From Gammaproteobacteria bacterium (GTDB taxonomy: Bacteria; Pseudomonadota; Gammaproteobacteria; Pseudomonadales; Cellvibrionaceae): DNA of 64,000 bases. Within the stretch, counting starts at the first letter, position 1; every line of letters starts with the position of its first letter. Under the pieces are notes generated by a model. The model was not told the DNA's origin. It did not search any database and saw nothing but the letters and a program-made list of their open reading frames with translations. The position numbers and the translations under genes are program-made. Shown here piece after piece: positions 5,771-62,001 of this stretch. The stretch lies in the NCBI GenBank assembly GCA_004172865.1, contig SEBV01000003.1:62001-126000 (forward strand). Reading direction: 5' to 3'.

Positions 5771-6318
5771 GTGTCCTCCACGATTGTGTACAGCTTATCG
5801 AGCGCTTAGGCTATGCATTAAAAGCTGATTTCAGTTCCACCCAACATAAAACCATTTGTATAACAGAACCTTAACTTTGCAAGCAAATGAAATTGAGAAT
5901 ATATATTTCAATATATTCGGAAATACACGGCCTAGATTTAGTTGGCATTTCATAAAACAGCCAAAAGCGACATTCGCGTGTCGTGAGCATTTGTCGCCTG
6001 ACCAATCAGTTTGTTTCAGTAGATAGTTGCAGAGTTTCAGTCAACACGGCTCGTGAAATCTGGTTTGATCTGCGCAAACAGCAGGTAGTCTGCCCCGCCG
6101 AAAACACGCTTTAAAAGCCATAATAGACACCTACTGTTCATGGAAGAAATAGTTGCCTTTTGCCTCAAGAAGAAACTACAAACTTCATTTCCCAGAAACC
6201 AAGTCACCGTATTGATGAGTTACTCAAATTCAAAGCTAGTTATTCGCACAAGATAATCTTCGTTTGAATCCAATGAAATAGGCAAACCTCATGCGAGATG
6301 TCAGATTACACCAAACCA
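5771..6318. other. Gene-free AT-rich stretch
   Basis: About 550 bases upstream of the methionine cluster. Frames are short (the longest plausible ATG frame, near 6139, has under 40 codons and no ribosome-binding site). I found no recognisable gene fragment or RNA. A short stretch near 5999-6013 resembles the 3' end of the acyltransferase gene over about 15 bases, which may be chance. Confidence 0.4.
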
Positions 6319-6331
6319 TGAAATTAATTCA
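6319..6331. promoter_or_regulatory. MetR-type box upstream of the mes genes
   Basis: TGAA-N5-TTCA is the classic MetR binding pattern of enterobacteria, here TGAA ATTAA TTCA inside a larger CATGAA/TTCATG dyad (6317-6333). It lies about 165 bases before the DUF1852 start. A MetR-type regulator is encoded at the other end of the same cluster, which supports the assignment. Confidence 0.65.
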
Positions 6332-6376
6332 TGCTTTAGTGAAATAATATCATTTTTATTCATGCAAAGATTCGGT

Positions 6377-6382
6377 TATAAA
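6377..6382 (+). promoter_or_regulatory. Possible -10 of the mes promoter
   Basis: TATAAA lies about 50 bases downstream of the MetR box. No good -35 hexamer sits 17 bases upstream, which fits an activator-dependent promoter. The inferred start would leave a leader of roughly 105 bases. Read by eye only. Confidence 0.3.
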
Positions 6383-6494
6383 ACACTCCTGCCCTTAGTA
6401 AAGCCAATTGGACACAAAGCTATTGTGAAATTGGAAAGTCTAGAGCACGAAATAAATTCAGGTTTTATCTCAGAAATCAGGTTGCAATATCGCA

Positions 6495-7475
6495 ATGAAT
6501 AAAGACTTTAGCTTTACCATCAAAAGCATTTGTTTCGACGAGAATTATCATCCCTCCGAAAATACGCGCATCACTACCAACTTTGCAAATTTGGCCAGAG
6601 GAGCGAGTCGTCAGGAGAACTTACGCAATACTTTGAGGATGATCGACAATCGTTTTAATGCGTTGGCGCATTGGGATAATCCCAAAGGCGATCGCTATAG
6701 TGTCGAACTTGAAATCATTTCCGTTGAAATGAATATTGATGTTGAAAACAGTGGCAATGCCCTACCCCTGATTGAAATATTGAAGCCGAATATTGTTGAT
6801 AGAAAAACCAACGAGCGCATTGAGGGCATTGTAGGAAACAACTTTTCCTCTTACGTGCGAGATTATGATTTTAGTGTTCTATTGCTGAAACAAAATAAAA
6901 ATCAGTCCGAATTAAAAACTCCAGATAATTTTGGAGATCTGCATGGCAAGTTATTTAAGAGCTTCGTGAATTCAAACACGTACAAAGAAAATTTTAATAA
7001 ACCGCCGGTTATATGCATAAGTGTTTCGAGTAGTAAGACTTATCATCGGACTGAAAATCAGCACCCAGTATTGGGCGTTGAATATCTGCAAGATGAGTAT
7101 TCCTTAACGGATGACTATTTCAAAAAAATGGGATTAAAAGTTCGCTATTTCATGCCTCCAAATAGTGTTGCGCCTTTGGCCTTTTATTTTTCCGGCGATT
7201 TGCTTGGTGATTACACTAATCTTGAGCTTATCAGCACCATCAGTACGATGGATACCTTTCAAAAAATTTATCGACCTGAGATTTACAATGCGAATTCTGC
7301 AGCAGGAAAATCCTATCAACCAAGTTTGAAGCATCAGGATTATTCGTTAACTCGAATTGTTTATGATCGAGAAGAACGTAGCCGGCTGGCTATTGAGCAG
7401 GGGAAGTTTGTTGAAGAAAATTTCATCAAACCATACCAGGCAATTCTTGAGCAGTGGTCCGCTAATTACGCTTAA
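6495..7475 (+). CDS. mesX: DUF1852 protein, partner of the MesD methionine synthase
   Basis: The 326-residue soluble protein matches the DUF1852 family by its overall sequence and by its place directly before a core methionine synthase. Published genetics on folate-independent methionine synthases (Price and colleagues) showed that the MesD family needs DUF1852 and oxygen, and needs neither methyl-folate nor cobalamin; I recall the name MesX for it. The biochemical role of DUF1852 is not settled; generating or delivering the methyl group in an oxygen-dependent step is an inference. No signal peptide or membrane segment is visible. The Shine-Dalgarno is weak (an AGG about 13 bases upstream). 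It is first in the cluster, 47 bases before mesD, and a MetR-type box lies upstream. Confidence 0.82.
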   Translation: MNKDFSFTIKSICFDENYHPSENTRITTNFANLARGASRQENLRNTLRMIDNRFNALAHWDNPKGDRYSVELEIISVEMNIDVENSGNALPLIEILKPNIVDRKTNERIEGIVGNNFSSYVRDYDFSVLLLKQNKNQSELKTPDNFGDLHGKLFKSFVNSNTYKENFNKPPVICISVSSSKTYHRTENQHPVLGVEYLQDEYSLTDDYFKKMGLKVRYFMPPNSVAPLAFYFSGDLLGDYTNLELISTISTMDTFQKIYRPEIYNANSAAGKSYQPSLKHQDYSLTRIVYDREERSRLAIEQGKFVEENFIKPYQAILEQWSANYA

Positions 7476-7522
7476 TTAAACCAAATCATATAAGTTCATT
7501 TATTTAGACACGATTATTTATT

Positions 7523-8413
7523 ATGAAAAAATTGTTACCGACTTCAACTGCTGGCAGCTTACCTAAACCCTCCTGGCTTGCAAAACCTGAAACACTTTGG
7601 TCACCCTGGAAATTGCAAGGTGATGAATTAATTGATGGCAAGCAAGACGCGTTAAGCTTGTCATTGCAAGAACAAGAACAAGCAGGTATTGATATTGTTG
7701 GTGACGGCGAGCAATCGCGGCAACACTTCGTCACTACGTTTCTTGAGCATCTCAACGGCGTTGATTTTGAGAAACGTGAGACCGTTAAAATTCGTGATCG
7801 CTATGATGCGAGCGTGCCGACAGTCGTTGGTGCAGTGTCTCGCCAAAAGCCGGTGTTTGTTGAAGACGCTAAATTTTTACGTCAGCAAACCAAGCAACCG
7901 ATTAAATGGGCTTTGCCTGGGCCCATGACAATGATATTTTTTGATGAGGTGAATGATTGGGGAATTGCTACTTTAGAAAAAGCGATTGAAGGACTCAAGT
8001 GCGAAACTGCAGTGCATATTTGCTACGGATATGGCATCAAAGCTAATACAGATTGGAAAAAAACCTTGGGGTCAGAGTGGCGACAATATGAAGAAATTTT
8101 TCCAAAACTGCAAAAATCCAATATCGATATAATTTCACTGGAATGTCAAAACTCTCATGTTCCAATGGATCTCCTTGAACTCATTCGCGGTAAAAAAATA
8201 ATGGTTGGTGCTATTGATGTGGCAACCAATACTATTGAGACTCCGGAGGAAGTAGCCAATACCCTACGAAAAGCACTGCAGTTTGTAGATGCCGACAAAC
8301 TCTATCCCTGCACCAACTGTGGCATGACGCCCTTGTCTCGAAGCGTAGCAAGAGGCAAGCTAAATGCCTTGAGTGCCGGTGCAGAAATTGTCCGAAGAGA
8401 ACTATCGGCCTAG
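7523..8413 (+). CDS. mesD: Folate-independent core methionine synthase MesD
   Basis: The protein (296 residues) corresponds to only the C-terminal catalytic half of MetE, lacking the folate-binding N-terminal domain. It methylates homocysteine to methionine in the cytosol. Zinc ligands can be aligned to those of MetE: His165 and Cys167 in VHICYGYG, Glu207 in ISLEC and Cys266 in CTNCGM. The adjacent DUF1852 gene places it in the MesD family, for which the methyl donor is unknown and oxygen is needed. Spacing to the DUF1852 gene is 47 bases with no strong Shine-Dalgarno. A large stem-loop follows the stop. The alternative label, a MetE-like domain protein of unknown role, is much less likely because all four metal ligands are kept. 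Confidence 0.85.
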   Translation: MKKLLPTSTAGSLPKPSWLAKPETLWSPWKLQGDELIDGKQDALSLSLQEQEQAGIDIVGDGEQSRQHFVTTFLEHLNGVDFEKRETVKIRDRYDASVPTVVGAVSRQKPVFVEDAKFLRQQTKQPIKWALPGPMTMIFFDEVNDWGIATLEKAIEGLKCETAVHICYGYGIKANTDWKKTLGSEWRQYEEIFPKLQKSNIDIISLECQNSHVPMDLLELIRGKKIMVGAIDVATNTIETPEEVANTLRKALQFVDADKLYPCTNCGMTPLSRSVARGKLNALSAGAEIVRRELSA

Positions 8414-8438
8414 CACTCGCCGATGTCTTGATGTGTAG

Positions 8439-8498
8439 GGGTTACTTGGTTTGAAGTGATATAATTCGGCTTGATATTCCCGATCAAACCAATAACCC
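8439..8498 (+). other. Large stem-loop in the mesD to flavin-reductase spacer
   Basis: GGGTTACTTGGTTTGA (8439-8454) pairs with TCAAACCAATAACCC (8484-8498) with one bulged C, and an inner TCGG/CCGA stem (8466-8469 with 8480-8483) stacks on it. No T-run follows, so it is not a classical terminator. It could be an mRNA-stability element, an attenuator or a cis-regulatory RNA for the downstream genes. Confidence 0.6.
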
Positions 8499-8639
8499 TC
8501 ACTTTACTTAAGAAGAATCAGCATTTTTAGTCAGAACTCATTCAGATTATGTGCCTACGCGATGAAACCAAGTGGTGACGAAATCGCGTGGTGTAGCTAC
8601 ATCTAAAGAAAAACGCTACGACTCAATTTAGGCAACGTG

Positions 8640-9131
8640 ATGATTGAAGTAACAGACTTTAGAAATGCAATGTCTTTGTTAACAGGCGCAGTAAATGTTG
8701 TAACCACAACAGGAGCGTCTGGTCGTTATGGATTCACGGCATCCGCCGTATGTAGTGTCACTGATACGCCTCCGACATTGTTAGTATGTATGAATAAAGC
8801 GTCTAACTCACATGCACATTTTGTAGAAAATAAAATTTTAACTGTGAATGTTTTAGGCGCACATCATCAGCCTATTTCTAACGCATTTTCGTCAAAAATA
8901 AATTCCGAAGAGCGTTTTAAATATGGCGTTTGGACAGAATTAAAAACGGGTGCACCCGTTTTAAAAGATTCTTTAGTGAGTTTTGATTGTAAAATTGAGC
9001 AAATTCAAGAAGTCGGAACACATGATATTTTTATTTGCCGAATTGTCGCTATTCAACAAACTCAACAGGATCAAGGTCTTGTTTATTTTAATCGCGCTTA
9101 CCACCATGTAGGACAAACAACTGTTGCTTAA
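8640..9131 (+). CDS. Flavin reductase-like domain protein (HpaC/RutF type)
   Basis: This 163-residue protein belongs to the short-chain flavin reductase family, which uses NAD(P)H to reduce FMN or FAD for a partner oxygenase. The family pattern is clear: FRNAMSLLTGAVNVVTT at the N terminus, GFTASAVCSVTDTPPTLLVC, a central NVL segment and the C-terminal YFNRAYHHV. An in-frame GTG directly precedes the ATG, but the ATG at 8640 has the better spacing to an AGG at 8630. Its place between mesD and the YcaO gene suggests it supplies reduced flavin to the oxygen-dependent MesD/DUF1852 reaction; that is inference from context. Confidence 0.83.
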   Translation: MIEVTDFRNAMSLLTGAVNVVTTTGASGRYGFTASAVCSVTDTPPTLLVCMNKASNSHAHFVENKILTVNVLGAHHQPISNAFSSKINSEERFKYGVWTELKTGAPVLKDSLVSFDCKIEQIQEVGTHDIFICRIVAIQQTQQDQGLVYFNRAYHHVGQTTVA

Positions 9132-9157
9132 ACCCAATCCCCAATCGGACCTATTTA

Positions 9158-11353
9158 ATGGAAATCAAAGTTAATTTTCTCGACAAACTTCGGCTGGAAG
9201 CGAAGTTTGATGATTTCACCGTCATCACCGATCAACCTATTCGCTATAAAGGCGATGGCTCCGCGCCTAGCCCATTTGACTACTTTCTGGCTTCGTCGGC
9301 GCTCTGTGCGGCTTATTTTGTACGTGTTTATTGTTTGGCGCGGGACATTCCCACAGAGAATATTCGGTTGTCGCAAAATAATATTGTTGATCCAGAGAAT
9401 CGATACAATCAAATATTTCAAATTCAGGTAGAGCTGCCGGAAGATATTTCTGAGAAAGATCGGCAAGGTATTTTGCGCTCGATTGATCGCTGCACCGTAA
9501 AAAAAGTGATTCAAACTGGTCCAGAATTTTTGATAGACGCCGTGAATAACCTCGACCAAGACAAGCAAGCTATGTTGATGGCGCAAGCAGATGGCGGTGC
9601 AAGTACTTTTATCTTGGGTAAAGATTTACCACTTGAGCAAACCATCGCCAATATGACGCATATTTTGGCTGACCTTGGGGTAAAAATTGAAATTGCGTCT
9701 TGGCGCAATATAGTGCCCAACGTATGGTCATTGCATGCGCGCGATGCTGCCTCCCCCATGTGTTTTACCAATGGTAAAGGCTCCACCAAAGAGAGTGCGC
9801 TTTGTTCAGCGCTGGGCGAATTTATTGAACGCCTTAACTGCAATTTTTTTTACAATGACCAGTTTTGGGGTGAAGAAATTGCCAACAGTGATTTTGTACA
9901 TTACCCCAGTGAAAAATGGTTTAAGCCCGGCCCCAAGGGTGCGCTACCTAGCGGAATTTTAGACGACTATTGTTTGGCGATTTATAACCCCGATGATGAG
10001 TTGCTAGGCACACATTTGATTGATACTAATTCAGGTATGGTGGAGCGCGGTATTTGTTCATTACCCTATGTGCGTCAGTCCGATGGCGCAACGGTTTATT
10101 TTCCCTCCAACTTAATTGAAAACTTATTTTTAAGTAACGGTATGAGTGCGGGCAATAACTTGCTTGAGGCGCAGGTGCAGTGCCTGTCTGAAATTTTTGA
10201 GCGCGCGGTAAAAAAACAAATTATTGAACAAGAAATTGTGTTACCAGATGTGCCAATGCAGGTGTTAGAAAAATATCCGAATATTCTTGCAGGCATTAAC
10301 GAATTAGAGAAACAGGGTTTTCCAATAGTCGTTAAAGATGCATCTTTGGGCGGGCAATTTCCGGTGATGTGTGTGACCTTAATGAACCCAAAAACCGGTG
10401 GTGTATTTGCATCCTTTGGTGGTCACCCGAGTTTTGAAGTTGCACTAGAACGCAGCCTAACGGAGTTATTGCAAGGTCGCAGCTTTGAAGGTTTAAATGA
10501 TGTGCCGCGCCCCACGTTTAACAGCATGGAAGTTACCGAGCCTGAAAATTTTGTAGAGCATTTTATTGATTCTACTGGAGTAATCTCTTGGCGCTTTTTT
10601 AGTGCGAAACATGATTATGAATTCTGCGAGTGGGATTTTTCTGGAACTAATGCGGAAGAAAGCGCATGTTTGTTAGCTATTTTAAAAGCGATGGGCAAAG
10701 AAGTTTATATTGCAGAACTTTCTGATTTAGGGGCGAGCGCCTGTCGCATACTGGTACCGGATTATTCAGAGGTTTATCCAGTTGAAGATTTAATTTGGGA
10801 CAACACGAATAAAGCGCTCGACTACCGCGCTGACATTTTAAATATTCATGAACTCAGTAAACGAGGCGTGATTAAATTACTTCGTCGTTTGGACGATAAC
10901 CAATTAGATAACTACACAGATATAAGAACACTCATTGGTATTGAATTCGATGACAATACCGCGTGGGGCCAGCTAACGATTCTTGAGCTAAAAATTCTTG
11001 GCTACCTATCTATTGGAGATCACCAAGAGGCAATTGATTTAGTGGCAGACTTTTTACAGTACAACACCAATACCTTGGCGCGTAACTTATTTTATCAAGC
11101 GGTACATGCAGTGCTTGAAATCACTTTGGATGAAGAGCTGGAACTTGAAGACTTTATCACCAATCTTAACCGTATGTTCGGCAAAGAAGTTATGGACAAT
11201 GTAGTCGGCTCAATAACCGGAGAAGTTAAATTCTACGGCCTCACCAAGACCAGCATGAAACTCGAAGGGCTAGACAAACACCAACGACTCATCGATAGCT
11301 ATAAAAAAATTCACCAAGCCCGTGCGAAATATGCAGAAAATATTGCTCGCTAA
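9158..11353 (+). CDS. OsmC-YcaO fusion protein
   Basis: The 731-residue protein joins an OsmC-type domain (about 1-135) to a full YcaO protein (about 145-731). The OsmC part keeps both reactive cysteines of the family, Cys50 in SSALCAAYF and Cys112 in IDRCTVKK, expected of a thiol peroxidase. The YcaO part follows E. coli YcaO closely, including FTNGKG, the ATP-binding SALGEFIER and QCLSEIFER helices, SNGMSAGN, and a C-terminal TPR-like region. YcaO enzymes activate amide backbones with ATP; E. coli YcaO assists RimO in methylthiolation of ribosomal protein S12. It starts 26 bases after the flavin reductase stop, so it is probably co-transcribed with the methionine genes. Its substrate here is unknown. 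Confidence 0.88.
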   Translation: MEIKVNFLDKLRLEAKFDDFTVITDQPIRYKGDGSAPSPFDYFLASSALCAAYFVRVYCLARDIPTENIRLSQNNIVDPENRYNQIFQIQVELPEDISEKDRQGILRSIDRCTVKKVIQTGPEFLIDAVNNLDQDKQAMLMAQADGGASTFILGKDLPLEQTIANMTHILADLGVKIEIASWRNIVPNVWSLHARDAASPMCFTNGKGSTKESALCSALGEFIERLNCNFFYNDQFWGEEIANSDFVHYPSEKWFKPGPKGALPSGILDDYCLAIYNPDDELLGTHLIDTNSGMVERGICSLPYVRQSDGATVYFPSNLIENLFLSNGMSAGNNLLEAQVQCLSEIFERAVKKQIIEQEIVLPDVPMQVLEKYPNILAGINELEKQGFPIVVKDASLGGQFPVMCVTLMNPKTGGVFASFGGHPSFEVALERSLTELLQGRSFEGLNDVPRPTFNSMEVTEPENFVEHFIDSTGVISWRFFSAKHDYEFCEWDFSGTNAEESACLLAILKAMGKEVYIAELSDLGASACRILVPDYSEVYPVEDLIWDNTNKALDYRADILNIHELSKRGVIKLLRRLDDNQLDNYTDIRTLIGIEFDDNTAWGQLTILELKILGYLSIGDHQEAIDLVADFLQYNTNTLARNLFYQAVHAVLEITLDEELELEDFITNLNRMFGKEVMDNVVGSITGEVKFYGLTKTSMKLEGLDKHQRLIDSYKKIHQARAKYAENIAR

Positions 11354-11705
11354 TGTTTAAGAGAGAAAATTCCGCACATATTTTTTTAATTTTGATGCGG
11401 TTAAGATCTTTTGGAAGTTGCCTCAAGCGTTTCGATAAAGACTAAATAAATTGTTCACCGATACATAGAAAAATTATGAACTCTGAGAATCTCCAAAAGT
11501 TAAATATCCAATTACGAGTTAAAAAAAAGTTTGCAGTTAATAACAGGTTAGAAGCTACCAATAGGCCAAAATATATTTCAAAAGCTAAACGCAAAAAAAA
11601 GTCTTTGTGAAGATGTGAGTATCTTGAGCCTGTTTATTTATGACTAAAAATGGTATTTTTTTCAGAAACCCATTAATTTTATTCATGTGACTTTACGAGA
11701 TTACG
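11354..11705. other. Spacer before the MetR-type gene
   Basis: About 350 AT-rich bases. No TGAA-N5-TTCA box, no strong hairpin and no reading frame with a ribosome-binding site. It presumably holds the promoter of the regulator gene. Confidence 0.4.
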
Positions 11706-12602
11706 ATGCTTGAACGTAGCCATTTAGCAGTAGTGCGGGAAATCGAGCGCCAAGGATCTTTGACCGGCGCGGCTGAAGCGTTATTCCTGACGCAATCAGC
11801 AATTAGCCATACCGTAAAAAAACTCGAACAAAATTTGGGCATTGAGATATGGCGACGCGAAGGACGTAGCCTAACGCTCACTCAAGCGGGCCAGTATTTA
11901 CTGGCAGTTGCTAACCGCGTACTACCACAACTGGACTATGCACAAGAACGTCTCCGCCAGTATGCACAAGGCGAATGCGGGGCGTTGCGAATTGGCATGG
12001 AGTGTCACCCCTGTTACCAGTGGCTACTCAAATTGGTTTCACCGTTTCTTTCTGCATGGCCAAATGTGGATGTTGACGTTAAGCAGAAATTTCAATTTGG
12101 TGGAATTGGTGCACTGTTTGGCTATGAAATAGATTTGCTAGTAACGCCCGACCCGCTCTACAAACCGGGGTTACGTTTCGAACCTGTTTTTGATTACGAG
12201 CAAGTACTTGTGGTGAACGGAAAGCATGCATTAGCCAAAGCAAAATATGTAGAGCCTGAACAATTAAAAACAGAAGTATTAATTACTTATCCAGTCACGA
12301 TTGAGCGTTTGGATATCTACAATCAGTTTTTGTTACCCGCTGGTATTAGCCCCAAGCGTCACAAGCCAATTGAAACCACCGACATCATGTTGCAAATGGT
12401 TGCCAGTGACCGAGGCGTGACTGCATTACCTCGCTGGCTTGTTGAAGAATATGCGAGCAAGCTCGATATAGTGCCGATACAGCTCGGTAAAGTAGGAATA
12501 CATAAACAGATTTTTCTCGGTATTCGCGAAGCCGATATTGAAATCGATTATGTAAATGCATTTGTAAAACTCGCGCACGAATTTCGCGATGTCACTGAGT
12601 AA
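11706..12602 (+). CDS. metR: LysR-family regulator of the MetR type
   Basis: The 298-residue protein has the LysR winged-helix domain (about 3-61; helix-turn-helix GSLTGAAEALFLTQSAISH) and a periplasmic-binding-like effector domain. The effector domain aligns with E. coli MetR in its most characteristic places: LRIGMECHPCYQWL (95-108), FDYEQVLV, TYPV..ERLD, FLLPAGISP, and IMLQMVASDRGVTALPRW. MetR senses homocysteine and activates methionine-synthase genes. It is the last gene of the cluster, in the same direction as its likely targets, and a MetR-type box lies before the DUF1852 gene. The start ATG has only a weak Shine-Dalgarno. Confidence 0.9.
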   Translation: MLERSHLAVVREIERQGSLTGAAEALFLTQSAISHTVKKLEQNLGIEIWRREGRSLTLTQAGQYLLAVANRVLPQLDYAQERLRQYAQGECGALRIGMECHPCYQWLLKLVSPFLSAWPNVDVDVKQKFQFGGIGALFGYEIDLLVTPDPLYKPGLRFEPVFDYEQVLVVNGKHALAKAKYVEPEQLKTEVLITYPVTIERLDIYNQFLLPAGISPKRHKPIETTDIMLQMVASDRGVTALPRWLVEEYASKLDIVPIQLGKVGIHKQIFLGIREADIEIDYVNAFVKLAHEFRDVTE

Positions 12603-61972: not shown

Positions 61973-62001
61973 ATGACAATCGATATACTCAAAAATGTAA
62001 T
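61973..62001 (+). promoter_or_regulatory. Promoter of the GH26 gene
   Basis: ATGACA (61973-61978) and TGTAAT (61996-62001) are one mismatch each from the sigma70 consensus and 17 bases apart. The -10 overlaps the first LacI-type operator. Confidence 0.6.

Follow-up and report, generated by a model that had tools for sequence, protein, structure and literature searches.

The window analyzed here, a stretch of 64,000 nucleotides (positions 62,001 to 126,000 of contig SEBV01000003.1) from a gammaproteobacterium of the Cellvibrionaceae, contains between 6319 and 12602 a group of five genes for which a sequence-only reading had proposed a single, oxygen-linked and folate-independent pathway of methionine synthesis. 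We consider it likely that this is a known type of mesX-mesD cluster in which the core methionine synthase MesD is damaged and the pathway is off, methionine being made by the synthase MetH with imported B12, and that the OsmC-YcaO fusion gene in the middle of the group is a separate acquisition. Four of the parts belong together and one does not. All five genes lie on the plus strand, where the sequence-only reading had placed them, and the features of the region are as follows.

6318..6332, no strand assigned: MetR-type operator ATGAAATTAATTCAT, an exact ATGAA-N5-TTCAT, 162 bp from the mesX start codon
6495..7475, plus strand: mesX (DUF1852, PF08908), 326 residues, putative oxygenase partner of MesD
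7523..8413, plus strand: mesD, core methionine synthase, 296 residues, with an internal 46-residue deletion
7934..7937, plus strand: junction of the mesD deletion, between Ile138 and Phe139, 138 bp gone in frame
8438..8499, plus strand: long hairpin in the gap between mesD and the flavin reductase gene, from the fold of 8414-8640
8637..9131, plus strand: flavin reductase (RutF/HpaC-like), 164 residues, PF01613
9158..11353, plus strand: OsmC-YcaO fusion, 731 residues, judged to be an acquired single gene outside the methionine pathway
11706..12602, plus strand: LysR-type regulator, MetR-like, of a subfamily seen beside mesXD in other genera

Family matches were strong for every gene except the regulator. 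MesX matches PF08908 over its full length (1-323 of 323, 633.6 bits), MesD scores 581.8 bits with NF006589 (cut-off, 392), and the flavin reductase has 131.6 bits with PF01613 and 217.6 bits with the RutF model, under the cut-off of 254.75 for the latter. The fusion protein is a full-length match to TIGR03549 (1463.3 bits; cut-off, 900) and scores 865.9 bits with NF040716, the model for the E. coli YcaO type (cut-off, 700). The five genes named by the sequence-only reading are present; what it missed is that MesD is 46 residues short.

The shortening shows first in the NF006589 match, which is split in two, the better stretch pairing residues 138-295 of the protein with profile positions 184-341, an offset of 46. 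The structure 3RPD, which Price 2021 calls MesD and through whose alignment we took NF006589 as the MesD type, also aligns to the window protein in two pieces. MesD proteins of relatives in the genus have 340-342 residues compared with 296 in the window, and a DNA alignment with 10 of these relatives places the loss at 46 codons (138 bp), gone in frame. The deleted stretch is kept in a single open frame in 10/10 genus relatives and in 79 of 80 named loci, the latter being the top 80 among no fewer than 593 relatives and hence biased toward close ones. In a 38-row MesD alignment where the window is the only row with a gap, 41 of the 46 deleted columns are at least 90% conserved. Asp188 of 3RPD, described as a substrate contact and one of three homocysteine-binding residues in the cited part of the original study (Price 2021, PMC7857596), falls inside the lost stretch. 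The substrate-binding set Ser22/Glu73/Asp188 (3RPD numbering, the chain index and the PDB number differing by 3, consistently so for each of these residues) is therefore incomplete, as Ser12 and Glu63 are kept and Asp188 is gone. We infer that MesD function has been lost in this bacterium, as judged from the sequence.

The remainder of the protein looks intact. His165, Cys167, Glu207, and Cys266 are present and invariant in 38 MesD sequences; by motif, they are the putative zinc ligands. The motif, a zinc-coordinating His, Cys, Glu, and Cys, comes from the same study (Price 2021, PMC7857596). Outside the deletion, MesD deviates at 1 of 245 conserved columns (rows L103, L080, L097, and L105 left out of this count) and MesX at 1 of 152 (91 sequences), and the mesD branch leading to the window carries 11 nonsynonymous and 41 synonymous codon changes, compared with 9 and 33 on the sister branch. 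Conserved columns and codon counts both speak against a broad decay of mesX and mesD, a possibility that we rejected, and since the rest of mesD is still conserved, the deletion looks recent.

A shortened MesD that still works, its barrel tolerating the loss and another group replacing the aspartate so that the cluster stays active, seems quite improbable to us given the conservation of the lost columns and the substrate contact among them. The structural model of the shortened protein is in addition of low confidence around the junction and in several loops, with a mean predicted local distance difference test score (pLDDT) of 72.3 and values below 50 at residues 22-28, 89-91, 93-95, 138-142, and 169-175; the model has no full-length MesD control beside it. 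Alternatively, the gap might be an artefact of the assembly or of a strain mixture, the gene of the organism being intact. The host genome is a 5.25-Mb draft in 229 contigs with 3.56% contamination, and the rest of the gene appears fully constrained, both of which would fit such an artefact; against it, the gap is in frame, and on reading the alignment, the lost stretch is not bordered in the relatives by a long repeat of the kind that leads an assembler to collapse sequence. We regard this explanation as unlikely and retain the loss of MesD function as the preferred reading.

Two other loci also show breaks in mesD. In Bowmanella yangjiangensis (L103, 9007-9982) the gene is broken by frame changes, and in Pseudomonas sp. 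M47T1 (L080, 3300-4326) it has a frame change near its end that is possibly a sequencing error; mesX is open in both. Loss of mesD may have occurred repeatedly across loci.

What the loss means for the bacterium depends on its other routes to methionine. A search of the genome with PF01717 recovered the two halves of the window MesD and nothing else, and hence no MetE. MetH is intact (1245 residues, 2199.7 bits) and MetF is present, while a search of the genome for CobB, taken as a marker of B12 synthesis, found none. Methionine is thus probably made by MetH alone, which would work with imported B12. PF01717 matches were obtained in 20 of the 21 genus genomes, the remaining one being 77% complete. 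Twelve genus genomes contain MetE (split in two in one genome and a short frame in another), 10 contain intact MesD, and 3 have both, while the genome of the window has neither in whole form.

The place of the remaining genes was judged from the neighborhoods of 89 nonduplicate relative mesX loci with 35 genus labels. Many of these loci share a genus (23 carry a Pseudomonas label), and the labels were taken from record titles and include entries that are not genus names (Moraxellaceae, a Pseudomonadota bin). One locus, L079, comes from the same genome as L017 and was excluded from the neighborhood and operator counts, while it is included among the 80 loci of the mesD count. MesD directly follows MesX in 89/89 loci. 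The proposed link of the flavin reductase to DUF1852 held up in this comparison, a reductase occupying the same slot as that of the window in 50 loci (18 of the 35 labels); none was seen in the other 39, and the count is a lower bound because L066, L085, and L097 have little downstream sequence. The reductases in this slot form three divergent groups, with 77-82%, 41-46%, and 25-29% identity to that of the window, which speaks for repeated recruitment. Expression data from Acinetobacter baumannii point the same way: in the part of that work used here, B12 lowered the DUF1852 gene by about 8 log2 units in two strains, and in AB5075 a flavin reductase gene two locus tags away fell by 2.5 with B12 (PMC12892962).

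Other genes recur beside mesXD in some loci. A TauE/SafE sulfite-exporter-like gene, of two divergent types, is found in 11 of the 89. It follows the flavin reductase in all four of the other genus loci that have a reductase (L015, L017, L018, and L024) and also in L078 and L081, and it is absent from four Acinetobacter loci with a close reductase; in Colwellia and Grimontia the gene beside mesXD is of the divergent type (35-39% identity; L102, L106, L110, L115, and L117). Its position hints at a sulfur-containing by-product of MesX. Genes resembling methylenetetrahydrofolate reductase, which looked at first like a lead on the methyl donor, lie beside mesXD in 9 of the 89 loci (L043, L044, L045, L047, L065, L068, L093, L095, and L105; five genus labels) and are weak relatives of MetF.

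The regulator had been described as MetR type, and this stands in so far as the protein is MetR-like: its NF011950 MetR score of 212.6 bits is under the NCBIfam cut-off of 382, and in a tree it belongs to a clade apart from ordinary MetR with 100/100 support, a result that carries a long-branch warning and includes only five ordinary MetR-type rows, two of them from the genus of the window. It is 37-40% identical to the ordinary MetR copies of the genus and 69-79% identical to regulators beside mesXD in betaproteobacteria. Copies with 81-84% identity occur in three genus genomes that also hold mesXD and the reductase, there on another contig, and this close type is present in 4 of the 11 genus genomes with MesX and in none of the 10 without. 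Among the mesX loci, a LysR/MetR-type gene with at least 45% identity to that of the window is nearby in 23 of 89 (12 labels). Despite its low score, the regulator may work like MetR.

The candidate operator supports the same association. The inner box TGAA-N5-TTCA spans 6319-6331, its first base being the start assigned to the cluster by the sequence-only reading. Of 90 loci (the 89 relatives plus the window, many of them related and so not independent), 49 lack an exact inner box within 300 bp upstream of mesX and 41 have one, compared with a mean of 0.81 and a maximum of 3 in 100 rounds of a Markov-1 control and with 2 of 90 in the mesX gene starts. Over the whole window the motif is no more frequent than by chance (4 sites; shuffle mean, 2.42), and the exact 15-bp box ATGAA-N5-TTCAT occurs 8 times in the genome against 4 for the reversed pattern. 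Six of these boxes are inside open reading frames, one precedes an unrecognized frame, and only that of mesX precedes a recognized methionine-related gene. We found no exact inner box before ycaO or on the 3.8-kb metF locus, and the sole copy on a 16-kb metH stretch lies behind the gene, so own exact operators for these three genes were rejected. The motif consensus, together with PF08908-metE2 as a predicted member of the MetR regulon, is given in the cited section of Leyn 2014 (PMC4239095). The window agrees with that regulon in having ATGAA-N5-TTCAT before mesX and a MetR-like gene nearby, and it differs in the regulator, whose subfamily is distinct from the ordinary MetR copies found in the genus. 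From these data we infer that the regulator would bind the 6318-6332 box and sense homocysteine.

The OsmC-YcaO fusion is the outsider, and the claim that it is linked to DUF1852 did not survive the neighborhood comparison, as the fusion is present in 0 of the 89 mesX loci. Among 274 class genomes including that of the window, 9 have the full fusion, 4 have MesX, and 3 have both, the two being adjacent in the window genome only. Nine other copies of the fusion have no neighbor family in common (up to four open reading frames on each side, fewer at contig ends), and on these grounds its membership in the pathway was rejected. Within the genus the full fusion is found in 2 of 21 genomes, that of the window and G018, and in the latter (96% complete) MesX was not found. 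The DNA shared with G018 extends over 9116-11410 at 91.7% identity, with an additional 60-base piece (11539-11598) at 78%, which suggests that one gene and 42 bp of upstream DNA moved as a unit. OsmC-YcaO was thus probably acquired as a single gene and inserted behind that for the flavin reductase. In G018 the fusion, 95% identical, lies behind a methylthioadenosine phosphorylase gene (L037, 9255-10121), a single instance of a sulfur-methyl context.

That the five genes would make up one methionine pathway, OsmC-YcaO handling sulfur or peroxide from MesX, is hardly credible in view of this distribution, even if the genes share a strand, only 26 bp separate the flavin reductase gene from ycaO, and the OsmC part has three conserved cysteines. 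With the YcaO link gone, the whole set as one pathway is not supported, and the synthase of the pathway is damaged here. All three cysteines recur at matching places in eight of the other nine copies, and in L155 the stretch inspected shows two of them and does not extend to the third. Returning to the fusion as a separate acquisition, its YcaO and C-terminal domains align with Escherichia coli YcaO (structure 4Q84) over residues 149-725 (E value, 1.5e-168), and it has an acidic isoelectric point (4.68; 4.69 for the YcaO part). E. coli-type YcaO thioamidates uL16, a ribosomal protein, the modified residue being a methionine close to the catalytic center of the ribosome, an acidic isoelectric point is one criterion for YcaO proteins of this kind, and the sulfur source is left open in the sections cited (Rice 2026, PMC13063428), in which work a Pseudomonas aeruginosa YcaO was tested as well. 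The fusion shares with that enzyme the aligned domains and the acidity and differs from it by the OsmC domain in front. By analogy with its relatives, it most likely thioamidates uL16. It seems very doubtful that the gene, captured behind a homocysteine-responsive operon, makes uL16 thioamidation follow methionine status and that the OsmC domain with its cysteines also carries the sulfur for it. As far as the indexed text goes, Rice 2026 (PMC13063428) is not among the papers that contain both words, OsmC and YcaO, and neither word is mentioned in the main text of Price 2021 (PMC7857596).

The AlphaFold model of MesX is confident (mean pLDDT, 86.5; predicted template modeling score, 0.88), a sequence search of the PDB found no relative (best E value, 0.89), and a fold search of the PDB gave no clear match, absence from the match lists excluding no family. 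Compared with the two-component flavin monooxygenases, whose reductase parts include RutF and HpaC, the flavin reductase of the window belongs to that reductase family, whereas MesX has no PDB sequence relative and no clear fold match. Flavin and oxygen chemistry of MesX is an unproven idea. Plasmid searches for MesX (209 records) and OsmC-YcaO (27 records) served as background only. In a record titled Bacillus subtilis SK6B4 (L087), MesX is very close to that of Pseudochrobactrum, and this assembly is probably mislabeled or contaminated. At G244:C1:2175963-2176446, MesX is present as two fragments, one of them interrupted by an in-frame stop, and that genome also has a complete copy at another place.

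The gaps between the five genes are, in order, 47, 223, 26, and 352 bp, so that a single transcript across all of them is not established. In the second gap, region 8414-8640 folded as a whole at -61.3 kcal/mol (z, -3.0), 2 of 200 shuffles being equally good, and the left arm of the 8438-8499 hairpin has one copy in the window. A promoter and terminator scan was of no use (14 and 8 sites, compared with 17.5 and 7.0 in shuffles), and riboswitch control by a known family was rejected, as neither the window nor the metH stretch had an Rfam match at the gathering score.

Taken together, a MetR-like, homocysteine-sensing regulator would act at the box before mesX and turn on mesX-mesD, MesX would make or carry a methyl group in an oxygen-dependent step, and MesD would hand it to homocysteine, while the nearby flavin reductase may give reduced flavin to MesX. 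With MesD damaged, methionine would probably come from MetH and imported B12, and the separately acquired OsmC-YcaO would most likely act on uL16. Much of this scheme is in print. According to the portions of Price 2021 (PMC7857596) used here, which covers MesD/MesX of Acinetobacter baylyi and Sphingomonas koreensis, dependence on MesX and on oxygen was shown for relatives, the S. koreensis mesX-mesD pair works in E. coli under air, and a flavin reductase near the pair had been noted, MesX being predicted to use flavin and oxygen. The cluster of the window shares with these systems the adjoining mesX and mesD and the nearby flavin reductase and differs in the 46 residues and one substrate contact that MesD has lost. 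The MesX-MesD core and the flavin reductase idea (Price 2021) and MetR control (Leyn 2014) are thus already published, and what is new locally is the damaged MesD. In the literature covered, our search turned up neither biochemical work on the pair other than Price 2021 nor a paper naming the methyl donor of MesD/MesX.

Our analysis divides what was a plausible pathway of five genes into co-occurring parts and one outsider. For the search for the methyl donor of MesD, it provides as leads a MesX protein without a clear known fold and the TauE/SafE genes by mesXD, and it supplies a naturally occurring MesD that lacks one of its substrate contacts. If the sulfur-carrier reading of OsmC-YcaO were true, the fused domain would offer a clue to where the sulfur in uL16 thioamidation comes from. 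For the bacterium itself, we predict a need for outside B12 or methionine. Sensitivity to nitrous oxide was found, as predicted, in strains whose sole synthase is cobalamin-dependent, and two MesD strains apparently escape, in the part of the work cited (PMC13059711); a strain dependent on B12 or methionine, such as we predict here, should be sensitive to nitrous oxide.

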